61,660 nucleotides of DNA from an uncultured Thiohalocapsa sp. (GTDB taxonomy: Bacteria > Pseudomonadota > Gammaproteobacteria > Chromatiales > Chromatiaceae): assembly GCF_913063425.1 (NCBI RefSeq), contig NZ_CAJXYK010000037.1, positions 1-61,660 of the forward strand, read 5' to 3'. The position numbers and the translations under genes are program-made. Shown here one piece after another: positions 25,606 to 51,946 of the stretch (position 1 is the first letter of the stretch; each line of letters begins with the position of its first letter). Under the pieces are notes generated by a model. The model was not told the origin of the DNA, ran no database searches, and saw only the letters and a list, made by a program, of their open reading frames with translations.

Positions 25606-26204
25606 TGGCTCGGCCTCCAGTCGCGACAAGGATGCTCAGCATTCGGCCACAGCGCCGGCGTTCGGCGGCTCGCGGGAGCGCCGATGCGGCAGCGACCGAT
25701 GCCGGCGCTGCTGCCGACGGTGTTGGGCTCGAAGTGCCCGCAGTTCGCACAGGTGACGGGCGCAGCCGGTGCCGTTTGTGCTGGCTGCGGGGGCCTGGGA
25801 ACGGGCTTGCCGGCGGCGACGTTGAAGCACCACGGGCAGGCGATGACGCGCGCCGGGGCGCCGGGCCAAAGCCAGACCGGGCCGCAGCCGTCGCAGATTG
25901 CCGTTTGGGTGTAGCTCTCGGGGCGTTCCCCGCCCTCGCGTTGCCAGCGGATTGATAGCGCCAGGGCGAAAGCGTCGAGGGCCTCGGGGTTCGCTTCGAG
26001 TTCGGGCCAATCGTCGCCGGCCGCCGCCTTGAGTTCGGGCAGGTCGAAGCCGTGAATTTTCTGAAAAGGGCCGGTTGGGGCAGTGTCGAAAGTGTCGATA
26101 CTCGGCTTTGAGGGGGTTTCGACACTTTTGGCACTAGGCGAACCGGGCATTTCCGAAAAATTCGCCGCATCGTCGAGGGTCCGCAGTCGGTCCAGAAACC
26201 TCAT
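25602..26204 (-). CDS. Cys-rich zinc-ribbon-like protein of the element
   Basis: This 200-residue protein is coupled to the primase by an ATGA overlap at 26201-26204. It carries two Cys clusters. C104/C107 with C123/C126 (CDGC...CPWC) form a likely zinc ribbon. C152/C155/C172/C193 form a second motif, CxxCxxF-x(n)-GxC-x(n)-CxxW. The second motif recurs at the C-terminus of the integrase in the same element. The N-terminal half is predicted helical. Proteins like this follow DUF3987 primases in satellites; function unknown. Confidence 0.7.
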   Translation of the reverse strand: MRFLDRLRTLDDAANFSEMPGSPSAKSVETPSKPSIDTFDTAPTGPFQKIHGFDLPELKAAAGDDWPELEANPEALDAFALALSIRWQREGGERPESYTQTAICDGCGPVWLWPGAPARVIACPWCFNVAAGKPVPRPPQPAQTAPAAPVTCANCGHFEPNTVGSSAGIGRCRIGAPASRRTPALWPNAEHPCRDWRPSQ

Positions 26205-28852
26205 TGCCGGGCACCTCGCAGCGCCGGGTTGACGGTGTATCGAACCGTCGGGCGTCCGGGGCCTTGGGCCTTCTCGCCGCGGACCCTGCCGAAGTCCTCA
26301 AGGGTCGCCAGTGCCGCCGCCGTGCCTTCGCGGTCGAGGCCGCGCCAGTGGTTGCGGTAAACGTCCTTTGCCGTGAACGGCTCGGGCAGGCGCAGCAAAC
26401 GCCGGTCCAGCTCGCGGGCCGAAAAAAAGTCGGGCGCCAGGGCGGGGGCATAGATGCGCCGGGCGTGCGATTCCAGGTAGTCGCACCACGCCAGGGCGCG
26501 CAGTAGCGACGGCTCACCAACGGGGCCGCGCTCAACGTCCGTCAGGTGGAACAGCAGCGCCAGGGACGGGGCAAGGCTTCGATATTTCGCCAGGTGCGAT
26601 TCCAAGGCGGGCGGCAGGTCCTCGGTCCGCAAGCGCCGCTCAAGGTCCGCGCGCCAATCGTCGAACAGGGCTTGGGCCGCCGGATCGAACCGAAGCCAGG
26701 GCAGGCGGTCGCCTTCGTCCTCGGTCGCGCCAATGGCCGCCGGGTCGAGGGTGTCCAGTCGGTCAAATACCTGCCGTGCGGCTTGCCGCGCGTTCGAGTC
26801 TGGCCAGCGGTCCACGTTGACCCATGCGGCGGGCGGATCGGGCCAAACCGCGACCTGGAAGCGTTGCAACAGGCCATCGTCGCCAGCGCCGCCGCGTAGG
26901 GTCTCGGTCAGGTAGTCCGCCAGGGGGCCGGGCTGGATGCCGCCTAGGATCGATACACAGGCCGCTTCAATCTCGACGGTGCCGCGGCCTATGCGGTCGA
27001 ACACGAAGCCGCCCGTGCCGTTCCAGGCTTCCAGATAGAACGCGCGGGTGCCTTCCCTGCCTTCGCGGTCGAGGCTTCGCAGGAAGCCCACAAGCTCGTC
27101 ACGGAACACCAGCACGCCGCGGGGGTTGTCGCGCAGCAGTTCGCCTAGCTTCTCAACGGTGGCGTCGCTGGTCTTGTAGCGCCGCCGGGCCGGTGGCTCG
27201 GGCTCTTCGACAGACTCGCGCGCCAGGGCTTCAGCCATGGTCTTATCGTTGGCCTTGACGGCTTTCTGTAGCTTCGTGGTTGCCTCTTTGGCATAGGCCG
27301 CGCTAAGCGCCAGCGCCGCCTTGTGCTCCTTCTCAGCTTCCGCGTGCGCGTCGCGGGCCTTCGCTTCGAGGGCATCAACAGCCTTCATCGGCTCGGCAAG
27401 CGCCGGGCTCTTCAGCAGCGACGGCCGCCCGATGATGCCGCCCCACAGGTTCGGGACAACGGTCCAATCGTCGCGGGCCTTGGGGCGAATACCGACTTGC
27501 CGTCCGACCACGGCCGCCAGGCAGACAACGGCCGCCGCCGCCGGGTAGTCCGGGGGGCATTGCATGCGCTCGGCAATGTCAACGATCCAAGGCCGCAGCG
27601 CCGCCGGCAGTAGCTTCGGGTCGAAGGCTTCGACGGGCGGCAGTCCTTCGGGCAGGTCCTCGGGCTCGGGCCAGGCGTCCACGTCGCGGAAGTCCGCCGC
27701 TGCATTGGCGGGCGCCTTGGCGTCGTTGACCGCTTCCCGTACCGCCTCGGACCCTACTAGGCAGGCCATGTCGTTGAAGTCGGTCGCCCCCTGCGGTGGC
27801 TCGGCCCCAAAGTCCGGCACCGCCAGCAAGCCGCCGACCTCCCGCGCGGCCTCAATGGCGTGAGGATCGGGCTCTCCGCTGTCCTTGGCCAGGTCAGCCA
27901 GGACGATCAGCTCAGCCGCCGGGTAGCGTGCGCGCATCGTCTGAGCAACGTCGGTGAGGTTGCCCGACGCCAGCGCGGCGACAACCGGGTGTCCGGCCGC
28001 CTCGCGGGCGCTCAGGACGGTTGCAACGCCTTCGCCGACCAACAGCGTCAACCCGCCGCCGTCGTTCTCCGGTAGTCGCTGCGCGGCCCAATAGCCGCCC
28101 TTCTTGGTGCCGCGTCCAGCCAGCGCCGTCTTGCGGCCCGCTTCGTCGATCAGCTCAAGGGTGGATAGCCGCCCGTCGCGCATGACGGGCACCACCAGCA
28201 GCCGACCGGCGAAGCGCTCACCGCGAGCCTTGGGCGTGTAGCCGATCAGTGTTTCAACCTGATCCGCCGGAAGCTCCCTCATGGTCTCCGTCGGGTGAAC
28301 GGACTTGCGCCGCAGATACGGGTGGTCGGGTTGGGCTTGGCTCGCGGCCTTCCAGATGCGTTGGGCTTTGTCGGCGGTTCCCGCGCGCTCGCGCTCGACC
28401 TCCGCGTCATCAGCGACGCTTGGTCCTCGCGGCGGTCGTGGGCGCATCGGCGCGGGGCCTCGGTCATGCCCATTGGTTGGACTCCAGCCGTGGGCCTTGG
28501 CCTCGTGGAACAAGGTTCCGATGCCGACGCCACCGTCGAGCCTGATCGACTTCCAAACGGCGCGGGCGTCCCTCTCGCTGTAGTTGTCGGCGCCCTGGGA
28601 CCAGTCGTCCCAAGGCTCGAAACCGGCATCGCCAAGCTCGGACTTAATTGCCATGCCGAGCCGAAGCCACAGATCGCGGTCGTCCGCTGGGACGTGCGCC
28701 AGGGCAGCGCGGATGCGTTGCGGGTCGGCTTCCGCCAGGCGCCGGGCGCGGGGCTCTGCGGTATTATTGCCGGGTCGGTCGCTCGCCGATGTCACCTTTG
28801 CGCCCGCTCCCGATATGCAGTCGGGGCGGGCGTATTCCGTTACGTTGTTCAT
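26201..28852 (-). CDS. Primase/helicase: PriCT-2, Toprim and DUF3987 domains
   Basis: This 883-residue replication protein has a PriCT-2-like domain (about residues 45-125, WLRLGMAIKSELGDAGFEPWDDWSQ), then a Toprim fold (LLVGEGVATVLSA ... ELIVLADLAKDSG). The large DUF3987 ATPase-like region carries WGGIIGRPSLLKSPAL in place of a classical Walker A and RGVLVFRDELVGFLRSLD as a Walker-B-like strand. The ATG at 28852 is preferred over a GTG three codons upstream. Such proteins prime and unwind DNA for element replication. It is the largest gene of the element and heads a coupled operon with the Cys-rich protein. Confidence 0.88.
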   Translation of the reverse strand: MNNVTEYARPDCISGAGAKVTSASDRPGNNTAEPRARRLAEADPQRIRAALAHVPADDRDLWLRLGMAIKSELGDAGFEPWDDWSQGADNYSERDARAVWKSIRLDGGVGIGTLFHEAKAHGWSPTNGHDRGPAPMRPRPPRGPSVADDAEVERERAGTADKAQRIWKAASQAQPDHPYLRRKSVHPTETMRELPADQVETLIGYTPKARGERFAGRLLVVPVMRDGRLSTLELIDEAGRKTALAGRGTKKGGYWAAQRLPENDGGGLTLLVGEGVATVLSAREAAGHPVVAALASGNLTDVAQTMRARYPAAELIVLADLAKDSGEPDPHAIEAAREVGGLLAVPDFGAEPPQGATDFNDMACLVGSEAVREAVNDAKAPANAAADFRDVDAWPEPEDLPEGLPPVEAFDPKLLPAALRPWIVDIAERMQCPPDYPAAAAVVCLAAVVGRQVGIRPKARDDWTVVPNLWGGIIGRPSLLKSPALAEPMKAVDALEAKARDAHAEAEKEHKAALALSAAYAKEATTKLQKAVKANDKTMAEALARESVEEPEPPARRRYKTSDATVEKLGELLRDNPRGVLVFRDELVGFLRSLDREGREGTRAFYLEAWNGTGGFVFDRIGRGTVEIEAACVSILGGIQPGPLADYLTETLRGGAGDDGLLQRFQVAVWPDPPAAWVNVDRWPDSNARQAARQVFDRLDTLDPAAIGATEDEGDRLPWLRFDPAAQALFDDWRADLERRLRTEDLPPALESHLAKYRSLAPSLALLFHLTDVERGPVGEPSLLRALAWCDYLESHARRIYAPALAPDFFSARELDRRLLRLPEPFTAKDVYRNHWRGLDREGTAAALATLEDFGRVRGEKAQGPGRPTVRYTVNPALRGARQ

Positions 28853-28862
28853 GGCCCCCACC

Positions 28863-29072
28863 TCAAGTCGCGGTATTCGCGCGGGTGTTCTCGGCGAGCC
28901 AGGCGCCCAGGTCCGCCGGGCGATAGCGGACGTTCGAGCCTAGCTTGATGAACTGAGGGCCGCCGCCGCGGACGCGCCAGGCTTGAAGAGTGCGATGGGA
29001 AAGGTTCAGGTAGGCCGCCGCTTCGCGCTCGTTCATCAACGCGGGGGCGGGGGTCGTGCTGTGGTTTGTCAT
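28863..29072 (-). CDS. AlpA/MerR-like helix-turn-helix regulator
   Basis: This 69-residue protein has a winged helix-turn-helix of the excisionase/AlpA type: NEREAAAYLNLSHRTLQAWRVRGGGPQFIKLGSNVRYRPADLGAWLAENT. In P4-like satellites AlpA activates integrase and controls excision. Its start is at 29072, and the primase start follows 10 bp after its stop, so it likely also governs the replication operon. Confidence 0.87.
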   Translation of the reverse strand: MTNHSTTPAPALMNEREAAAYLNLSHRTLQAWRVRGGGPQFIKLGSNVRYRPADLGAWLAENTRANTAT

Positions 29073-29148
29073 AGCGCTTGGTCCTGCTATCAGTTGCGAT
29101 TGCAGGGCTAAGTCTTGCGCGGGCTCTCCGCACTTAAAACACGGACAT

Positions 29149-29943
29149 CTAGCTGCGGATAGGGAAGGGCGTGATGTTTCTGCGGGTGGATTGCAGGTCT
29201 TCGGTTGCGGTTCCAACCCAGTAACTCGTCGGGCACTCACTCAATGCTTGTTCAACGCGACGTATACCGCAACGGAATAACTGAGCGACGCGTTTCTTTG
29301 CGCGCTCCCGATGCCCGTCACCGGTATCCGTCCGCTCATGCAGGGCAACGCACATTGATATTTCGATGTTTCGGGCAGTTCGAGCGGAAGCCGGCTCAGC
29401 GGAGCCGCCGCGCGGCTTCGCCCATCCGAACGCCACGTCCGGACGAACAATCTGATAGTCGCTTTGGCGACGAACAATCTGATAGTCGCTTTTCTGCCCG
29501 GTCATTCGCAATGCGACCACGCGAGCAAACCATACGGAGAACTCATGCAGCGGAACCGGCTTGTCCCTGTCACGACACGGCGCCGCATCAATACCTCGGT
29601 GTTCCGCCGATGCGAAGAACTCACAGAGTCGGCTGAATACGGTCTTGATGACTTCGGGCTCGTCGCTGCCCTCGAAGACGAACAGCAGGGCGCGCAGCGC
29701 TTCGCAGCTCAGTTCAGGGCCGGCGAGGATGCGGTTGAGCCACGCGGAGAACTCGTCTAGCGGGACCGCCTCGGACCTATCGCGACACGGCACCGCATCA
29801 ATGCCTCGGTGTTCCGCTGATTCAAAGAATTTGCACAGTTTGATGAATACGTCTTGGACAATCTTGGGCTTGTTGCTGCCCTCGAAGGCGCGCAGGAGGC
29901 TGCGCAGCTCTTCGCAGCTAAGTTCAGAGTCGAACGTCGGCAT
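29149..29943 (-). CDS. Unknown cargo protein with internal 70-residue duplication
   Basis: This 264-residue frame starts at ATG 29943. Residues 8-74 and 78-144 are a tandem duplication (LSCEELRSLLRAFEGS / LSCEALRALLFVFEGS, each with SAEHRGIDA[VA]PCRDR and a conserved W near the end). At the DNA level the period is 210 bp. The C-terminal half is less convincing as coding sequence, apart from a basic helical stretch (GHRERAKKRVAQLFRCGIRRVEQAL). A 24-bp direct repeat interrupts the middle. I do not recognise the family. It lies in the cargo zone between the integrase and AlpA. Confidence 0.5.
   Translation of the reverse strand: MPTFDSELSCEELRSLLRAFEGSNKPKIVQDVFIKLCKFFESAEHRGIDAVPCRDRSEAVPLDEFSAWLNRILAGPELSCEALRALLFVFEGSDEPEVIKTVFSRLCEFFASAEHRGIDAAPCRDRDKPVPLHEFSVWFARVVALRMTGQKSDYQIVRRQSDYQIVRPDVAFGWAKPRGGSAEPASARTARNIEISMCVALHERTDTGDGHRERAKKRVAQLFRCGIRRVEQALSECPTSYWVGTATEDLQSTRRNITPFPIRS
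29442..29492. repeat. 24-bp direct repeat, 27-bp period
   Basis: Two identical 24-bp copies (gacgaacaatctgatagtcg plus cttt) start at 29442 and 29469. They encode a repeated SDYQIVR in the 264-residue frame. This is either a recent slippage duplication or a tandem protein-binding site. Confidence 0.85.
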
Positions 29944-30060
29944 GGTCGCGTACCTTCAGGCGCGGGCCTTTGAGGGGGCAAGCCAGGGCGGTGAAGGGGC
30001 CGCCCGTTCGGGGCCTACCCAAAAACAGGCCATCACTGGACTGGGTGACGGTGATTGGCA

Positions 30061-31371
30061 TCATTTCCCCACGACAAGGTCCGCGCTTCCGCGCGCGGGC
30101 GCGGCGGAGTAGACCTTGAACCAGCCGTCCAAGTCCTCTGCGGGCAACGTCTCGCGCAAGGCTCGGACGAACTCAGCGTCGCCGGTGGACTCCCAGGACA
30201 CATCTTTGAAGACGAGCTTCACCGCCGGCTCAATGACGCGCATGCCTTTGACGCCATCGCGAATCTTGGCCTTGATCTCATCGGGCTTCGTTTGCGTGCC
30301 GGCTCGTGCAGGAGCGGCCGACTGGCGGCGTAGCACTAGGTCCGTGATTTGCTTCACCAGGTTGTCTTCGTCCTTGTGGACTGCTTCGCGGAACCCGGCG
30401 ACCCATGCCTTGAGTACCTTTTCAAAGGCGTCGATCTCTGCCTGGAACTGCGGCTTGTCCGCGCGTCGGATCAGCAGCCCGAAGCCGCGCATCCGGTGCA
30501 GGTAGCGCTTCAGGATGTCGTTCCAAACCTGCTTGATCTCGGCCTGGGTCATGGGTGTCAGCAGGGGTTTGCCTCGCTTGTCGAATGCGAGTTGCCCCTG
30601 AATCATGGCTTGAACCGGGATTGGCACGTCCGCCTGTTTCGAGAACGGCCGAATCTTGGTGTCGAAGAGTTCCGCGAGGTCGTCCGAGACATCCGCGTTC
30701 AACAGCAGGCTGGACACCTTGGTTTCGCGCTCGGTCCATTGCGCGCCGCGTAGCGTGCATTCGACGAACTGCACCTTGGTGGAGAACACGCGGGCCATGC
30801 GGGACAGGTTGACTGGGGCCGGCGGGTTTGCGGCCAGCGCTTCCATCGTCTCTTTGGCGCGTTCGGCGCTGAGGGGCTCGCGCCCGATCTCCATGTCCGT
30901 GAGAACGGTGTTGGAGGCGCCCGACCCCACGGCAGCGTCGATGTGTTCGGACAGGTTGGTTACGCTGTCGAGCCGGATGCCATTGGGCTCGCTGGGCGGG
31001 ATGCTGTCAGCCTTGCTCGGTGCCGGGCCGTTCTCGACCGACTTGGGGGTGGGTGCCCACATCAGGATGGTGTCGTCGGCGATCAGGAGCCCGAGCCGCA
31101 CGCCTGGCTCGGAGCGCACGGTGACGTTCGGGCGCTGCACCAGTTCGGCGAGCAGCGCGGCGCCCTTGGGATCGCCGTAGCCGACCCGGTAGGCGTCTTC
31201 GTCCGGGTCGAGGATCAGGGTGATTTGCGGCCCCGGTTGCGGGTCGGTCAGGGTGCTGCTTGCTTCGGCGACAACCCCGGCCAAGCCGGGCGCCACCAGA
31301 ACGACGCGCGAGCGTGCGCCCGCGATGGTGTCCGCCAGGGCTTGGTCCGTAACTGCCGTGAAGGTCTGCAT
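30061..31371 (-). CDS. Unknown cargo protein, PLD-like N-terminal fold suspected
   Basis: This 436-residue soluble protein starts at ATG 31371 (a TTG at 31398 is possible). Its N-terminus alternates strands and helices (SRVVLVAPGLAGVVAEAS, ITLILDPDEDAYRVGYGD, AALLAELVQRPNVTVRSEPGVRLGLLIADDTILMWAPTPKSVENG). This is reminiscent of phospholipase-D-like/HKD proteins, but the HxK motif is absent. The C-terminal 250 residues are helical and charged (FDTKIRPFSKQADVPIPVQAM, KQVWNDILKRYLHRMRGFGLLIRRADKP). It lies just downstream of the toxin-antitoxin pair in the cargo zone. A defence or regulatory role is plausible by position only. Confidence 0.6.
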   Translation of the reverse strand: MQTFTAVTDQALADTIAGARSRVVLVAPGLAGVVAEASSTLTDPQPGPQITLILDPDEDAYRVGYGDPKGAALLAELVQRPNVTVRSEPGVRLGLLIADDTILMWAPTPKSVENGPAPSKADSIPPSEPNGIRLDSVTNLSEHIDAAVGSGASNTVLTDMEIGREPLSAERAKETMEALAANPPAPVNLSRMARVFSTKVQFVECTLRGAQWTERETKVSSLLLNADVSDDLAELFDTKIRPFSKQADVPIPVQAMIQGQLAFDKRGKPLLTPMTQAEIKQVWNDILKRYLHRMRGFGLLIRRADKPQFQAEIDAFEKVLKAWVAGFREAVHKDEDNLVKQITDLVLRRQSAAPARAGTQTKPDEIKAKIRDGVKGMRVIEPAVKLVFKDVSWESTGDAEFVRALRETLPAEDLDGWFKVYSAAPARGSADLVVGK

Positions 31372-31487
31372 CGGCTTCTGTCTCCCGTCTTCGCTCAATC
31401 CTCTGCTGGTTACGGGCGCTGTTGTGGGCCAAGGCGCGCGCCCGTGCCGTTGAGAAGCGGATCGAGGTTGAGCGGGTCATACCTCGG

Positions 31488-31769
31488 TCAGTGCTGGGTC
31501 TCCAGCTTCACCACGGCGCGGGAGCCGGTGGCGCTGGCGTAGCGCTCCAGCGTGCGCAGGCTCGGCAGGCTGCGCCCGCTCTCCAGCCGGGCGACGGCGG
31601 ATTGCGAGGTTCCCATGCGCTCGGCAACCTCGGTCTGGCTCAACCCGGCGCGGGTGCGTGCGGCGATCAGCTCGCGGGCGAGGGCGAACTCGGGCGCCAG
31701 GGCGTCGTACTCCGCGCGGGTCTGCGGGTCGTCCAGCAGGCGCGCCTTCAATTCGGCAAGCTCAGTCAT
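31488..31769 (-). CDS. XRE-family antitoxin (HigA-like)
   Basis: This 93-residue protein has a helix-turn-helix of the Xre type (ELIAARTRAGLSQTEVAERMGTSQSAVARLESGRSLPSLRTLERYASATG). It overlaps the upstream toxin gene by 8 bp. It is expected to bind and neutralise the RelE/HigB-type toxin and repress the shared promoter. Toxin-first order is typical of HigBA pairs. Confidence 0.9.
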   Translation of the reverse strand: MTELAELKARLLDDPQTRAEYDALAPEFALARELIAARTRAGLSQTEVAERMGTSQSAVARLESGRSLPSLRTLERYASATGSRAVVKLETQH

Positions 31770-32088
31770 CGGTCAGTCTCCGCAGACGGTTACGGGCGGT
31801 CTCAAGGGCCTTGCGCGGGGTCTTCTGCGTCTTCTTGATGAACACATGCAGCACGGTCAGCCGTTGCCCGGTGCGCGCGACATAGACGGCGCGGGCGATG
31901 CCGTCGCGACCGGTCAGGCGCATTTCCCACAGTTTGCCTTCCAGGTGGCGCACGTGCGGCATACCGACTTGCCGCGGGCCGAATGCCTCCAGCAACTCGG
32001 CAACGTGCAGGAAGCGGGCGCGGATGTCGGGCGGCATGGCCAGCAGCTCCGCTTCCGCGGCAGGGTCCAGGTCAACCGTCCAGGCCAT
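31762..32088 (-). CDS. RelE/HigB-type toxin (phage Gp49-like)
   Basis: This 108-residue protein of the RelE/ParE superfamily has MAWTVDLDPAAEAELLAMPPDIRARFLHV at the N-terminus, then HVRHLEGKLWEMRLTGRDGIARAVYVARTGQRLTVLHVFIKKTQKTPRKALETARNRL. The WEMR, R-rich strand and HVFIKKTQKTP segment match the Gp49-like ribosome-dependent mRNA interferases. It is predicted to cleave mRNA on ribosomes. It forms an operon with the XRE antitoxin and may stabilise the element. Confidence 0.9.
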   Translation of the reverse strand: MAWTVDLDPAAEAELLAMPPDIRARFLHVAELLEAFGPRQVGMPHVRHLEGKLWEMRLTGRDGIARAVYVARTGQRLTVLHVFIKKTQKTPRKALETARNRLRRLTDD

Positions 32089-32151
32089 CGCCTATCTCGT
32101 TTTTGATATGGTGGACCAATTGGTGCATCGGCGCAATGCCTCGGGGTCTGG

Positions 32152-33705
32152 TCAGCCGTTCGCGGCGGCTGGTTGCCGTGCGAGCATGGGCGGGGCCTCG
32201 TCGTCGAGGATGTACCGCGGGCAGGCTTCAGCGGTTGCCGCGCGGGTCTTGTGGTGGTGCGGGCTGCGCGGGCTGATACAGCCGCCGGCCGGTGCGTTGC
32301 GGAAGTCCTCGGCGAAGAACACGCAGGTTCCACAGCAGGCAGACGGGGCCGGCAGCTTGGCGACCTTCGCCGTGGGGGTCAGGCCAGCCGCGCCCATGAT
32401 GCGGGCGCCGTGCTGCTCTAGGGCGGTCCTCACGTTGTCCTCGCCGAAGCGGGCGTATACCTGAGTCGTCGAAGCGTTGGAGTGCTTCAGAACCCGGCCG
32501 ATAAGGTGCAGGCTGTTACCGGCTTGCGCGAGCCAGCTTCCAACGGTCCGCCGTAGGTCGTGCAGTCTCACGTCATCGATTGCCGGCGGCAGGTCGAGGG
32601 CTTCCGCCGCCGCCGCTTGGCGAATCTCGGCAAGGCTGGGGGTCGGGGTCCAGTCCTTCGCAGCGTGCTTGCTTTTCGCCGCCGCGCGGGCCTCGGTCAA
32701 TCGGTCGATCAGGGCCGACACCTCGGGCACTTCGCGCCAACGGGCCAAGGTCGCCGCGGTGCGGACGCGGTTCCAGGGCTTCGAGATATTCACCAGATGG
32801 GCGCCGGCCTTGGCGCCGGGCAGGAGGTAGGGATTGCCGGGGGTCCGCGGAATGTCGCGCAGCAGCGCCAGGGCGGGGCCGCTCAAGGGTAGGTAATGGG
32901 TGCGCCCGGCCTTGGTCTCGGGAAGCCGCAGGGTGCCGCGGGCCTCGTCCACGTCATCCCATCGGGCCTTGAGTAGTTCCGACTTCCGCGCGCCCACCAA
33001 CAGATACAGCCACAGGGCGTGGCGGGCGCTCTCGTTTGGCTCGGCATTGATGGCCGCCGCCAGGTGCGGCAGTTCCTCGGGCGTTACCCATCGGTCGCGC
33101 TTCTCTTCCTTGTAGTCGTCAATGCCTTGGGCCGGGTTCGGGTGGCCGTCTTCGACGAATCCCCACTTCCGGGCAAGCTCGAACATCCGCGCGACAAGCT
33201 CGCGAACTCGGTTCGCTTCGTAGGGCTTGCCTTCCTTGGTGCCGATGCGGGAATGCAGCGCCGCCACGTCCGCGCGTCGAACCGCCTTCACCTTCAGGGC
33301 GCGCCATGCGGGCAAGACGCGGGAGTTGATGCGCCGCTCGTCCTCTTGCCAGCTCTTTTTGTGCGGCTTCGCGTAGCGTTCGAGGTAGGCCGCGCACAGG
33401 TCCGCGACGGTCTCGCCGCGCGCGGATTTCTGCCGCTCTTCGAGGGGGTCCGCGCTGCCGGTCTCGATCTTCGCCAGTTCCGCGCGGGCCGTCTTGCGGG
33501 CTTCCGCCAGGCTGAGGGCACCATACGCGCCAAGGGTCATCATCCGCTTTCGGCCGTTGACGCGGTAGGACAGCACGAACGACCGCTTGCCGCTCGGCAG
33601 CAGACGCAGGCCGAAGCCGGGCACCTCGTCATCCCACAGCACGTGCCGGCTCTTGCCGTCGCCTTCGTAGCGTGCCGCGTCGATTGCTCGCTTGGTCAGC
33701 TTCAC
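32152..33705 (-). CDS. Tyrosine integrase with C-terminal Cys extension
   Basis: This 517-residue recombinase has an N-terminal DUF4102-like arm-binding domain (ARYEGDGKSRHVLWDDEVPGFGLRLLPSGKRSF), a core-binding domain, and a catalytic domain with R240 (LLVGARKSELL), K265, H382xxR385 (RLHDLRRTVGSWLAQAGN), H408 (LKHSN) and nucleophile Y417 (TQVYARF). It continues about 75 residues beyond the usual end into a Cys cluster: C457/C458, C461, C476, C495. The start is GTG 33705 with AGGTGA upstream. It sits 170 bp from attR and should integrate into and excise from tRNA-Arg. Confidence 0.95.
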   Translation of the reverse strand: MKLTKRAIDAARYEGDGKSRHVLWDDEVPGFGLRLLPSGKRSFVLSYRVNGRKRMMTLGAYGALSLAEARKTARAELAKIETGSADPLEERQKSARGETVADLCAAYLERYAKPHKKSWQEDERRINSRVLPAWRALKVKAVRRADVAALHSRIGTKEGKPYEANRVRELVARMFELARKWGFVEDGHPNPAQGIDDYKEEKRDRWVTPEELPHLAAAINAEPNESARHALWLYLLVGARKSELLKARWDDVDEARGTLRLPETKAGRTHYLPLSGPALALLRDIPRTPGNPYLLPGAKAGAHLVNISKPWNRVRTAATLARWREVPEVSALIDRLTEARAAAKSKHAAKDWTPTPSLAEIRQAAAAEALDLPPAIDDVRLHDLRRTVGSWLAQAGNSLHLIGRVLKHSNASTTQVYARFGEDNVRTALEQHGARIMGAAGLTPTAKVAKLPAPSACCGTCVFFAEDFRNAPAGGCISPRSPHHHKTRAATAEACPRYILDDEAPPMLARQPAAANG

Positions 33706-46667: not shown

Positions 46668-49244
46668 CTAAGGCGCACAGTCCTCAAGAACGATGTTGCT
46701 GAACACGCTCTCCCCGTTCTGCGGCACCTGGTCGTCGTCCATGGCGAAGAACAGGCGGGTGAACGACCCTCCGCTCAAGCCCGGATAGTCGTCCAACGGG
46801 ATCGTGTAGCTCACGGTCCCGGAGCCGCTGTAGACCGTGAAGTTCGCGTCCGGCAGGATCCCCCAGACCTGGGTGCCATAGACCTGGAAGGTCCGGTTGC
46901 TGGTGATGGCGTCGTCCGTGTCCAGGCCGATGCCGTGGATCTCCCCCTGGGTGCCGCTCGCGAAGTCGAAGGACAGCGTCGTGCCGTCGCCCACCGTGCA
47001 CGCGAGATCGACCTTCTTCCAGGCATTCCCCACCATGGTGAGGGTCGCGCCGTCCACCGTCACAGTCGCCGGACCCAGGTCCTGTTGCAGGTCATAGGGC
47101 TCGACGATCAGGTCCAGCTGCTCGCCGTCCACGGTGACGCTGAGCGTCTCAGGCGGCGCCTCGAAGATCCGGATGCTGCCGAACACGCTCACGCCGGTGC
47201 CGTCGCCGTCGTCGTCGTTGGCGAAGAACAGCCGCCCGAAGCTGCCGGTGTAGTACTCACCCACCGGGATCTGGTAGGTGACGGTGCCGCTGCCCGGATA
47301 CTCGGCAAAGTTCGCATCCGGCAGGATGCCCCAGTTCTGGGTGCCATAGACCTGGAAGGTCCGGTTGGCGCTGATGATGCTGTCCGTGTCGAAGCCGATG
47401 CCTTGGATCTCCCCCTCCACCGGGCTTGCGAAGGTGAGCTCCAGCACCGTTTGCGAGGTGACCTGGTAGGGTGTGGCGAGCTGCACCTGCTTCCAGGCGT
47501 TGCCGGTGAGGCTCAGGGTGTCGCCGCCGTCAGTGATCACCGGCACCACGCCGGCGTTGTCCTGGGTACCGCCATAGGACAGCACATCGTAGGCCGTGGT
47601 CAGATCGCCGATGGTGACGTTGAGCTGTGTGGCCACCTCGCAGGCATCGCCGATGCCGTCGCCGTCCGCATCTTCCTGTCCGGGATTGGCCACGCTCGGG
47701 CAGTTGTCGCAGACATCACCGACACCGTCACCGTCGGCATCCGCCTGGTCGGCATTGGCCGTGGTCGGGCAGTTGTCACAGACATCACCGACGCCGTCAC
47801 TGTCTGCATCCGCCTGGTCGGCGTTGGCCGTGGTCGGGCAGTTGTCGCAGGCATCGCCGACGCCGTCGCTGTCCGTGTCCTCCTGGCCTGGGTTCGCGGT
47901 GCTCATGCAGTTGTCGCAGGCATCGCCAACGCCGTCGCTGTCTGCATCCGCCTGGTCCGGGTTCGGGGTATTCGGGCAGTTGTCGCAGACATCACCGACG
48001 CCGTCACCGTCCGCATCCGCCTGGTCGGCATTGGCCGTCTCCGGGCAGTTGTCGCAGACATCACCCACGCCGTCCTCGTCACCGTCCGCCTGATCCGCGT
48101 TGGGCGTCAGCGGGCAGTTGTCCAGGTCATCCGCCACGCCGTCACCGTCGGTGTCCAAGATCACCGGCGCATCGGCAACGCTCAAAAAGCGCAGCATGCC
48201 GCCCAGGGTATCGCCGACGCTGGTGTCGTCCGGGTCGCTCGGATTGGTCATGTAGCCGTTGCCGTCATAGACGGCGAACCGACCCTCGGACGCGGGCACG
48301 ATGATGGCGTCCTTGGTCTTCAGCGGCGGCAGCATCACCGAGTACTGCTCCCGCGGCGCCGTGCCCGAGGTGCCCGCGGTGGTGTCCTCCCAGCCGTACT
48401 GCAGCGCGTCCTCGGCATGCACCTGCATGTACAGGCCCTGAAGCACAGGCACATGGGTCTCGCTGGTGGCGCTGAAGAAGCGCAGGAGCGTGCGCTCGCC
48501 CACCGCACCGGCGTCGATGTCCGGCGTTTCGCCCTCCACGTAGGGCTCGCCGTTCACCAGGAACCAGCGGCCGTCGTAGTGGATCGGCGTGTAGTCGGTC
48601 TCGCCTGCCGCCACCGCCGCGTTGTGCGCCGGATCGATGTCGCTGTAGAACAGCACCACCTCGTTGTCGTAGCCGACGCCCGGATACACCTCACCCGCCG
48701 CAGCGTCCTGCGTCGCGGGGCCGTAGAGGCCCATGTAGACCTGCTTCTGTGGGTGGGTGCCGCTGTGGTAGACGAAGCTGCCGGGGCGGTTGACGTCGAA
48801 GCTGTAGGACTCGCTGCCGCCGGCCGCGGCCTCGGCGCCGAAGGAGCGCACCCGCTGCTCCGCCGCGGTGCGCGGGCCGGTGCTGCCGTCGTTCCAGGTG
48901 GGGCCGTCACCGCCGGAGACGGGCATGGGCAGCCCTGGAATCACCAGCGAGGTCGGCTGCGGCAGATTGTTCTGCACATAGACGGTCAAGGTCGTGTCGC
49001 CTGCGGGCACAACGAGCCGTGGACCGGGCACTGTGGGAGCGTTGCCGCAGCCGTCGCTCAGATCGGCGTTGTCGTCCAGCGCGTAGGCCCACATGGGCAC
49101 GCTGCTGCCGTCGGGCAGGGTCTTGCTGGTCTGCTCCGCGCACAGGTAGTAGTCCACCGCGGCGGCGGGGCCCGCCGCCGTGCCGAGCACCAGGGCGGCG
49201 AGTGCGCACTTCAGGTTCGGTGTCATGATCTTGGTCCTTTGCAT
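46668..49244 (-). CDS. Cupredoxin-like secreted protein with TSP3 repeats
   Basis: This is an 858-residue exported protein. After the signal (residues 1-29) come about 330 residues with two cupredoxin-like domains: [33 protein letters not shown] and [22 protein letters not shown]. The second keeps the YxYHSG frame but lacks a full set of copper ligands. Seven TSP3 units of 23 residues ([23 protein letters not shown]) follow, then two ~150-residue beta domains similar to those at the end of the subtilase. Fifteen bp separate it from the 453-residue oxidase gene. It may be the non-catalytic third of a split multicopper oxidase. Confidence 0.82.
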
Positions 49245-49259
49245 GGGTGTGCCCTCCCG

Positions 49260-50621
49260 CTACTCGATGTCGACGTCGGGAGGCAGCACGACCACTGCGC
49301 TGAGGGTGCCGCCAGGGAAAATGTCGAAGGTGGTCAGCTCCTTCTCGGCGTGGGAGTGCCAGACGAAGAAATAGCCGGCGAAGGGGTTCAGACCGCCCTC
49401 GCCCGGGGGCAGGTCACCGGCATCACCCAGGAAAGGACTGCCGCTGTACCAGGCACCGAAGGCGAGCTCGCCCGGGCCCGGCAGGGACACCGGGAAGGGC
49501 TTGCCATGGTCCGCGCACCACTCGCCGGGATAGTCCGCGTCGTCGTCCGCCCAGCCGTCATTGTCATCGTCCTTGCAGGTGTGCTCAGTGTCGTGGCCAT
49601 AGATGTCCCAGCCGAGGTCCTTACCGGTCCAGGTCCAGATGGCATCGATGGCCTGCTTCGGCGGCGAGTTGATGGTGTTGTCCGAGCGACCGAGGTTGGC
49701 CGTCGTGCCGTCCGAGGACAGCATGCGGCCGTCGCGGGCGATGTAGGTCAGATTCTCGCCGTGGTAGTGGAAGGGATGGCTGTCCTGGCCCGGGTTGACA
49801 TTGCGCACCAGCACCCGGTCGCGCGGATGCGCTTTGGCGAGTGCGGAGTACGGCTGAAACGGATAGATCGGGCTGTAGTCGTCCTCAAACAGGTCCGGGA
49901 ACACACGGCCGTTGACGAACCAGATCTTCGCGAAGCGGTCCGCATTGGTGAAATGGGTGTAATGCCCGCGCTCCATCTCGAAGTGGATGTCCGGATCCAC
50001 TTCGGTCAGCAGGTACAAGAATTCCTGGTCGTAGTCCGTCTCGGTGCCGGCGCCGTACGCCGTGCGGCTCGTGTCGAAATCGTCCGGCCGGACGATGAGC
50101 ACGCCGAGCAGGCCCATCTCCACGTGCAGGCCCGGATTCGGGGCACCCGCGCTGTGGTAGACGTAGGTGCCGGGCTGCTCGGCGGTGAAGCTGTAGGTGA
50201 CGGTCTCATAGAGGCCCGCCTGCCGGGTGAAGACCCCCTCTGAGCCTCCGAGCGCGGTGACCTCATGGCCGGTCACCAGCAGCGACACCGGGTGCGGAAT
50301 GCCGTAATTGGTCACCGTGATCGTGACCTCATCACCCTCGTCCACCACCAGTGTCGGCCCCGGATACTGCGGCAGGGCGTAACCGACGCCCTCGGGGTGT
50401 GTGGCATTGGCTCCGCCCAGGGCGTCGCCGAAGAGCCACATGTACAGGCTCGTGCCCTCCGGCAGCGGGATATTGGCCGGGTAGGTGTAGAGGTTGAAGC
50501 TCGGCCCCGTAATGCCGCGGATGTCGTGCTGGGCCTGCGCCGGCTGCCATGGCAGCACCAGCGCGAGACCCGCGGCCAGGACGCCCAGCAGGCGCCCGGA
50601 CCATGCAGGATGCTTGATCAT
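49260..50621 (-). CDS. Multicopper oxidase polypeptide (HPFHYHG/WHSH half)
   Basis: This is a 453-residue exported protein with two cupredoxin domains. Domain 1 (about 55-180) has PGPTLVVDEGDEVTITVTN and YVYHSAGAPNPGLHVEMGLLG, a degenerate site without Cys. Domain 2 holds HPFHYHG at 282-288 and FFVWHSHAEKELTTFDIFPGG with H422/H424, both of the type that bind the trinuclear copper cluster. There is no HCH motif, so no type 1 Cys. The missing HWHG and HCH motifs are in the next gene upstream, 29 bp away. The two products therefore probably form one oxidase. Confidence 0.88.
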   Translation of the reverse strand: MIKHPAWSGRLLGVLAAGLALVLPWQPAQAQHDIRGITGPSFNLYTYPANIPLPEGTSLYMWLFGDALGGANATHPEGVGYALPQYPGPTLVVDEGDEVTITVTNYGIPHPVSLLVTGHEVTALGGSEGVFTRQAGLYETVTYSFTAEQPGTYVYHSAGAPNPGLHVEMGLLGVLIVRPDDFDTSRTAYGAGTETDYDQEFLYLLTEVDPDIHFEMERGHYTHFTNADRFAKIWFVNGRVFPDLFEDDYSPIYPFQPYSALAKAHPRDRVLVRNVNPGQDSHPFHYHGENLTYIARDGRMLSSDGTTANLGRSDNTINSPPKQAIDAIWTWTGKDLGWDIYGHDTEHTCKDDDNDGWADDDADYPGEWCADHGKPFPVSLPGPGELAFGAWYSGSPFLGDAGDLPPGEGGLNPFAGYFFVWHSHAEKELTTFDIFPGGTLSAVVVLPPDVDIE

Positions 50622-50650
50622 GTCGTGTCTCCCCTGTCTCGCGCGTTGGC

Positions 50651-51946
50651 CTAGTTGATGACGATCTCGGTGATCATGCCGCCGTCGAGCTCGGTCCGAT
50701 TGCTCAACTGGTGCAGCTCCGTGGCGTATAGGAAATAGGTCCCCGGCGCGACACCGTCGGTGTCGATGAGGATGTCCTTGGTCTCGCCGCCGCCGAAGTT
50801 GACCGACGCGGTCTCCCGGTAGATGTTCTTCCCATCGACGCCGCGGGCATGCCGGGCACCCGTGCCCACCACCTGCATGGTCAGCCCCTGGGCGGTGAGG
50901 GTGTAGAAGCGGTCCACGCTCACGTTATTGAGCCGCAGCAGCAGGCGCTCGCCCTGGGCGAGCTCCACCACCGCGTCCTCCACCTGGGTCGGCTTGCCAT
51001 TGGTGAGCTCGGTGCCCGCGGTGCCCGTCACCTTGCCGTCCTCGCTGTCCACCGGTGCCGGCAGTGCGCCTTCCACCACGGTGTCCGGATAGCCGCGGCC
51101 GTTCAGCATGGGATAGTCCGCGTCCAGCAGCGCGAAGGGCAGCGGCTGCACGAACAGGCTCGCGTCATGGAAGCGGGAGTCGAAGCTCGAGATCTGAATC
51201 GCCTTCTCCACGTCCCAGGCCGTGGTGCCGTCGTCGTCGTTGTAGACATAGCCCGTCGGTGCGGCCGGGTCGGTGCCGCCCTTGCGGGTGGCCACTGGGC
51301 AGGGGATGCTGCCTGTGCAGCCGGTCGCGTCCTGCCGCGGATGCACATAGAGGTTGGCGAGCATGCCCATCTCCATGTGCTCGGTGGCCTCCACGTGGCA
51401 GTGGTACATGTAGTCACCGGGCTCCATCACCTTGTAGTAGTACGTGAGCGTCGCGCCCATGTTGATGGCGATGGAGACCTCCGGAACCCCATCGAACACC
51501 GTCGCCGCGTTCGGGAAGCCATGCCAATGCACCGTGTGCGGATCGAACAGGTCCGGGCGGATGACGGTGCCCACATTGGTGAGTGATAAGTAGAACTCGT
51601 CCCCCTCGTCCAGCTCGATGAGGCTCCCCGGCCACTCGGACGCCAGAATGCCGTCCGCAATGGCCTCCTCCGGCGGTGTGCCGGTGATGTCCTTGAAGCC
51701 GAAGGTGTAGAGCGGATTGCCGTCGGACATGACCGCAAAGCTGTCGCCGGCGATGAGGTGCATGCACTTGATGTTGTCCGCGGGCCGCACCTCGGCGACG
51801 CCGTCCACCACGTCGTCCCAATCCGCATCGCCGTTGAGATCGCCGGGGCATTGGACATTCACCACGGCCGACGCCGCACCACTGCCGCCGAGCAGCACGG
51901 CGAGCACGCCCGCCGGGAGCGCACGCTTCTTGAAGTCACTGTTCAT
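50651..51946 (-). CDS. Multicopper oxidase polypeptide (HWHG/HCH half)
   Basis: This is a 431-residue exported protein from the ATG at 51946 (MNSDFKKRALPAGVLAVLLGGSGAASA signal). The first cupredoxin domain contains HTVHWHGFP (H140, H142) and YMYHCHVEATEHMEMGM (H182, C183, H184, H190, M195), giving a type 1 Cys/His/Met set and two trinuclear HxH motifs. The second domain (about 280-431) shows no copper motif. HPxHxHG and WHSH, needed for a complete trinuclear cluster, are absent here but present in the following gene. It is expected to work outside the cytoplasm in oxidation of a metal or organic substrate. Confidence 0.9.
   Translation of the reverse strand: MNSDFKKRALPAGVLAVLLGGSGAASAVVNVQCPGDLNGDADWDDVVDGVAEVRPADNIKCMHLIAGDSFAVMSDGNPLYTFGFKDITGTPPEEAIADGILASEWPGSLIELDEGDEFYLSLTNVGTVIRPDLFDPHTVHWHGFPNAATVFDGVPEVSIAINMGATLTYYYKVMEPGDYMYHCHVEATEHMEMGMLANLYVHPRQDATGCTGSIPCPVATRKGGTDPAAPTGYVYNDDDGTTAWDVEKAIQISSFDSRFHDASLFVQPLPFALLDADYPMLNGRGYPDTVVEGALPAPVDSEDGKVTGTAGTELTNGKPTQVEDAVVELAQGERLLLRLNNVSVDRFYTLTAQGLTMQVVGTGARHARGVDGKNIYRETASVNFGGGETKDILIDTDGVAPGTYFLYATELHQLSNRTELDGGMITEIVIN

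Follow-up and report, generated by a model that had tools for sequence, protein, structure and literature searches.

According to the available portion of PMC3600357, multicopper oxidases (MCOs) hold the trinuclear site with eight histidines, four per domain, and type-1 copper with two His, one Cys, and one Met. Two-domain MCOs (2dMCOs) are homotrimers in which each cluster lies between domain 1 (d1) of one chain and domain 2 (d2) of the next, as set out in the accessible text of PMC13151041. Type-C 2dMCOs, such as 3G5W from Nitrosomonas europaea and 2ZWN from a metagenome, resemble the proteins described here in that each chain has two cupredoxin domains, type-1 copper sits in d1, and half-sites lie in d1 and d2. 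In those enzymes every ligand is present on a single chain, three copies of which form three clusters, whereas the present locus spreads one ligand set over three different chains. MnxG/MofA/OmpB and ceruloplasmin have the same total of six cupredoxin domains and one trinuclear cluster between domains but are single long chains (one chain above ~1200 aa, against chains of 431, 453, and 858 aa here), with type-1 copper reported in other domain positions; for the bacterial enzymes, the same portion of PMC3600357 places type-1 copper in domain 2 and the cluster between domains 2 and 3. The type-1 set described below lies in a d1-type domain, as numbered in the two-domain oxidases. The iodide oxidase IOX (IoxA and IoxC) is, like the system proposed here, a multimeric MCO with SCO-family genes in its operon, but in the available description its IoxA chain holds all four copper-binding regions (PMC9415286). 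No chain here does so, and IOX was rejected as the family.

A cluster resembling the present one by description is Slit_1812-1818 of Sideroxydans lithotrophicus ES-1, whose abundance was higher in late cultures on magnetite than in cultures on Fe(II)-citrate, according to the accessible text of Keffer et al. 2025 (PMC12016527). In that text, MCO motifs are present in two of the proteins and absent from a larger third one, and comparable clusters are noted in Burkholderiales, Anaeromyxobacter, and Steroidobacteraceae; the available part of PMC5566968 also mentions three tandem MCO genes in ES-1. The available parts of these two papers do not describe one shared copper site for the ES-1 cluster. 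Among the matches listed, only PMC12016527 names three of the Slit locus tags, and none of the matches listed from the open-licence literature describes, in its title or the beginning of its abstract, an MCO site split over two genes.

In the window (the whole 61,660-nucleotide stretch of DNA analyzed), an apparent operon on the minus strand reads P0004-P0001-P0002-P0003-P0006-P0005-P0007, with P0013, P0012, and P0011 beyond. Pfam places Cu-oxidase domains in P0001 (50651..51946, 431 aa), P0002 (49260..50621, 453 aa), and P0003 (46668..49244, 858 aa), the first two separated by a gap of 29 bases. Each of the three has two cupredoxin domains, giving six in total as the sequence-only reading of this DNA had counted; its coordinates and its motifs (HWHG in P0001; HPFHYHG and WHSH in P0002) were likewise correct. 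The P0003 cupredoxin domains, which are ligand-poor, occupy approximately residues 30-355 and are followed by thrombospondin type-3 (TSP3) repeats and then by two related C-terminal domains.

The distribution of copper ligands over these chains was established by comparing profiles of the orthologues with ten ordinary single-chain two-domain oxidases of other gammaproteobacteria, picked by the P0001 profile. Alignments were significant across both domains (canonical-P0001, 9.7e-37; canonical-P0002, 5e-41; canonical-P0003, 7.7e-24; P0002-P0003, 9.6e-68). The canonical single-chain 2dMCO C_L082 served as reference, with 13 positions comprising 12 copper ligands and the d2 HxxH histidine. All eight of its d1 positions map to P0001 (H137, H140, H142, H182, C183, H184, H190, and M195); these include all four type-1 ligands (H137, C183, H190, and M195) and four of the eight trinuclear-site histidines (H140, H142, H182, and H184). 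All five of its d2 histidines map to P0002, where H285, H287, H422, and H424 supply the other four trinuclear-site residues and H282 is invariant; H282 is not counted as a copper ligand because P0002 lacks the type-1 Cys. A joint alignment read as letters per group (19 P0001, 19 P0002, 17 P0003, and 10 canonical rows) agrees with this mapping. The opposite halves, in P0001 d2 and P0002 d1, are replaced, with only occasional ligands remaining. P0002 d1 retains H156 (His in 8 of 19 rows) and H166 (His in 5 of 19), with Met in the axial position in two rows; P0001 d2 has His at two of the five places, each in 2 of 19 rows. Type-1 ligands in the N-terminal domain are thus found in P0001 and absent from P0002 and P0003, and no single chain carries a full set, P0001 being without the d2 ligands and P0002 without those of d1. 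P0003, a homologous protein, has lost nearly all ligands, leaving mainly H160 and H264. The earlier claim that neither P0001 nor P0002 has the ligands for a trinuclear site of its own was borne out, with four histidines on each and complementary halves at 19 of 19 loci, as was the view of the two P0003 domains as degenerate.

The complete type-1 set on P0001 alone would also suit a blue-copper electron carrier, with P0002 as a separate copper protein elsewhere on the electron path and no trinuclear cluster in either. This is very unlikely, given that H140, H142, H182, and H184 would be superfluous for a mere carrier and that all eight trinuclear-site histidines, four per protein, are kept at every one of 19 loci. 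Those loci, from 16 genomes, are the window, two further Chromatiaceae loci (L001 and L002), and 16 loci from 13 further genomes; L069, a two-gene pair of the kind discussed below, was excluded from the count. Conservation covers all eight P0001 ligands and all five P0002 histidines.

The two genes also co-occur. In the order, P0001 and P0002 were found in the same 34 of 210 genomes at E <= 1e-30 and none had just one, and the matched stretches lie 13-97 bases apart in 33 of the 34. The remaining genome, G840, has full-length copies ~1.2 kb apart, still in separate frames. Between these copies (G840:C1:1226679-1230599) lie P0002 and P0001 fragments, as if the two genes had once been duplicated in tandem. 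At the level of the class, strong matches to both proteins coincided in ten of 369 genomes: P0001 matched at E < 1e-100 in ten, and P0002 at E <= 1e-30 in the same ten plus G133, which holds a two-gene pair. In the phylum sample, 2 of 398 genomes were positive, one being that of the window. In these searches, scoring was confined to the top 4 or 8 candidates of each genome. Neither gene was found in nine other genomes of the window's genus, so the cluster may have been acquired horizontally; a phage-type integrase and a DUF3987/PriCT primase-like gene (26201-33705, minus strand) lie a few kb away. Two scans of viral contigs found no relative, and a candidate from Alkalibacillus (L003) was dropped since the match spans only ~49 residues. 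Between-locus distances correlate over 17 loci, with species history uncontrolled (P0001-P0002, r = 0.911; P0001-P0003, 0.716; P0002-P0003, 0.753; maxima after shuffling, 0.545, 0.299, and 0.368, respectively). An assembly error, frameshift, or decaying gene could find a precedent in the G840 fragments, though these sit beside full-length copies. Its probability is negligible: P0001 and P0002 occupy separate frames without internal stops in all 34 positive genomes of the order and all 19 loci, and P0002 has its own N-terminus, signal-like by eye. The intact relatives rule out the frameshift and assembly-error readings.

The parentage of the split proteins was examined through profiles, folds, and a tree. 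The best solved match to the P0001 and P0002 profiles (8 rows each) is PDB 3G5W, with ascorbate oxidase almost tied in the P0002 profile search; a single-sequence search with P0002 matches nitrite reductases best. A single model of P0002 (9-row alignment, pLDDT 52, with residues 303-417, which hold WHSH, below 50) was used in a fold search, in which 3G5W and 2ZWN fitted best and nitrite reductases fell within about one Z unit of 3G5W. Because nitrite reductases score so near and lead the single-sequence search, the predicted P0002 fold is no proof of an oxidase. A P0001-P0002 chain model, from an alignment of only five rows, reached pLDDT 30.2 and pTM 0.23, values too low to interpret.

The sequence-only reading had proposed a heteromeric six-domain oxidase encoded in pieces, of the MnxG/ceruloplasmin type. 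Its complementary halves and six domains hold up; the MnxG/ceruloplasmin assignment is not supported, as both profiles and tree place type-C two-domain oxidases nearest and the P0002 fold search agrees. A MofA/MnxG-like oxidase broken into three genes would account for the total of six domains, and the MofC-like cytochrome and SCO gene nearby recall mofA/ompB clusters as described in the available part of PMC5566968. This origin is nonetheless improbable, marginally more so than separate copper proteins. The closest profiles, tree neighbors, and folds are all of type-C two-domain enzymes (in a comparison set without MofA and MnxG), and the type-1 site appears to lie in another kind of domain than the available portion of PMC3600357 reports for bacterial six-domain oxidases. 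In addition, a search of 369 genomes with the P0001 profile at E 1e-14 (four candidates per genome) gave a frame above 700 aa only in G344, and this is a P0001 gene whose open frame continues upstream beside P0004, which lies in another frame. With the nearest relatives type-C two-domain proteins and type-1 copper in an N-terminal-type domain, the system is better read, at the level of sequence, as a heteromer of differentiated subunits, once a homotrimer, than as the fragments of a six-domain chain. It may act like a six-domain oxidase, but it does not look like a split MnxG.

The role of P0003 is the point on which the main alternative turns. Eighteen of the 25 weaker class-level matches to P0001 were examined: 10 are canonical, seven belong to two-gene pairs, and one is a lone d1-type half at a contig end, its partner unseen. 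In the seven pairs (L091-L092, L094-L096, L098-L099, L102-L106, and L069; the second gene of L099 is cut by a contig end), the d2-half gene comes first and has d2 histidines only, and the next protein has d1 ligands only. Six of the neighborhoods contained no third cupredoxin, SCO, or P0012 homologue (E 1e-4, frames of at least 120 aa). A third ring member is therefore unneeded by part of the family, and the pairs are apparently a second, simpler split system. The tree (77 rows, ligand columns removed, five incomplete rows left out, root not placed) recovered each of six kinds as a single group, with support of 96/85 for P0002 plus P0003 and 98/94 for these together with the d2 halves of the pairs (pA). 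On these groupings, P0003 appears to have arisen by duplication on the P0002 side, and a single origin of the d2-type half is probably common to the two- and three-gene systems.

An oxidase made of P0001 and P0002 only, as in the compact pairs, with P0003 as a separate surface or scaffold protein, would fit the seven complementary pairs, the six neighborhoods without a third cupredoxin, and the near-complete stripping of ligands from P0003. It is considered rather unlikely, although the strongest of the competing explanations. At all 19 loci, the gene after P0002 encodes a P0003 homologue; contig ends cut two, and the complete copies retain both cupredoxin domains. A ring of three two-domain units is moreover the expected geometry, because known 2dMCOs are trimers in the accessible text of PMC13151041. 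A three-chain ring that includes P0003 is favored by a modest margin of confidence.

The surrounding genes suggest a cell-surface setting. P0004 (52029..57908, minus strand, ~1960 aa) has an N-terminus that is signal-like by eye, a match to fn3_3 (polysaccharide lyase family 4 domain II), and weak matches to SdrD_B and beta-helix domains. It is a separate gene ahead of P0001 in 14 of 19 loci (spread over two frames in two of these) and is fused behind the P0003 cupredoxins in three (L064, L066, and L067), with two undecidable; this fusion points to a joint role for P0003 and P0004. P0006 (45970..46548, minus strand, 192 aa, no known family) has a homologue near P0003 in 13 of 19 loci. P0005 (42408..45959, minus strand) is an 1,183-aa subtilase with Calx-beta domains, TSP3 repeats, and C-terminal domains in common with P0003 (46671-47570 in P0003 and 42411-43295 in P0005, both on the minus strand). 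The C-terminal ends of the two match at 48% over 552 aa, partly through low-complexity TSP3 repeats, and the end domain has one further, partial copy in the genome, on contig C108. The shared domains are possibly a surface-attachment module.

P0007 (41425..42258, minus strand) belongs to the SCO1/SenC copper chaperone family by Pfam. P0012 (37775..39475, minus strand, ~566 aa, with a start picked by eye within a longer frame) has one CxxCH heme motif and resembles the description of MofC, which has a cytochrome c domain and a periplasmic binding domain in the available part of PMC5566968; in P0012, Pfam Cytochrom_C scores 20.7 bits against a cut-off of 21.3, and no binding-protein domain matches at E 0.1. 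A P0012 homologue lies within ~15 kb of the oxidase genes on the same contig in 12 of 19 loci, the window included; in L001 it falls outside the stretch examined, and in six loci there was a contig end, a location on another contig, or none found. It adjoins SCO in all seven loci beyond the window for which both genes were read, and in the window P0013 (39836-41302, minus strand, 488 aa, a TSP3 repeat but otherwise no Pfam family) intervenes. Stretches related to P0013 occur near the cluster in L035 and L058. P0011 (34382-37153, minus strand) is a 923-aa multiheme cytochrome with nine CxxCH motifs and a sub-threshold MtrC/MtrF-domain match; it has matches in 4 of 14 genomes searched, the window's included, and lies beside the cluster in G029. 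An MtrB/PioB porin search of 14 genomes gave six above the cut-off and no match in the window's genome, where a metal-oxidizing lifestyle is consequently unsupported.

The ES-1 cluster, as described in the accessible text, is alike in its SCO, cytochrome, and small hypothetical genes, and its larger motif-less protein has adhesin and polysaccharide-lyase-like domains. On contig G272:C37, the order P0001, P0002, fused P0003 and P0004, P0006, SCO, and P0012 is that given for Slit_1818 to Slit_1812. The window differs in that P0004 is a gene of its own, set ahead of P0001 and apart from P0003, and in that a subtilase is added; the comparison is with the published description of the ES-1 genes.

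The ligand distribution, conservation, co-occurrence, gene order, and relationships are read from the sequences; from them we infer a working scheme for secretion, assembly, stoichiometry, oxygen reduction, anchoring, copper loading, and substrate. P0001 and P0002, with P0003, probably form a secreted or extracellular heteromeric MCO with one cluster at the contact between P0001 d1 and P0002 d2, and confidence is highest that the two proteins have a copper site in common. Type-1 copper in P0001 d1 would accept substrate electrons singly and hand them to the trinuclear cluster, half from P0001 d1 and half from P0002 d2, where O2 would be reduced to water; oxygen reduction by such a composite site is likely. 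The geometry would follow that of the homotrimeric two-domain oxidases, but with a single half-site left on each subunit, hence one cluster per assembly. P0003 would most likely take the third ring position, its TSP3 repeats and C-terminal domains (or the P0004 fusion) anchoring the enzyme at the cell surface, with the SCO-type P0007 loading copper and the one-heme P0012 exchanging electrons. A reduced metal or mineral outside the cell, with Fe(II) the leading candidate, is a tentative assignment for the substrate; given homology of the clusters, the ES-1 expression data would favor solid Fe(II). Iodide, Mn(II), or phenols may be alternative electron donors. A broader proposal is also tentative: a heterotrimeric MCO in which just one of three pseudo-equivalent contacts holds an O2-reducing cluster, representing a differentiated but unfused step between homotrimeric two-domain and single-chain six-domain oxidases, and possibly serving cell-surface electron uptake from reduced metals or minerals in purple sulfur and iron-oxidizing bacteria.

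An O2-reducing copper site is usually built from copies of a single protein; here, its halves lie on two neighboring genes, which suggests that the oxidase works only once different proteins assemble. The finding extends past the window, with the same half-sites across the relatives' loci. Where annotation labels every gene a multicopper oxidase, a single enzyme is entered two or three times. Should the ES-1 magnetite cluster be homologous, neither of its two "MCO" proteins is predicted to be active singly, and tests of single proteins would miss the enzyme. The scheme in the available portion of PMC3600357 derives six-domain oxidases from a two-domain protein through triplication and site loss, via hypothetical intermediates. 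A family in which complementary halves have been lost while the chains remain unfused would be a living example of such an intermediate step.
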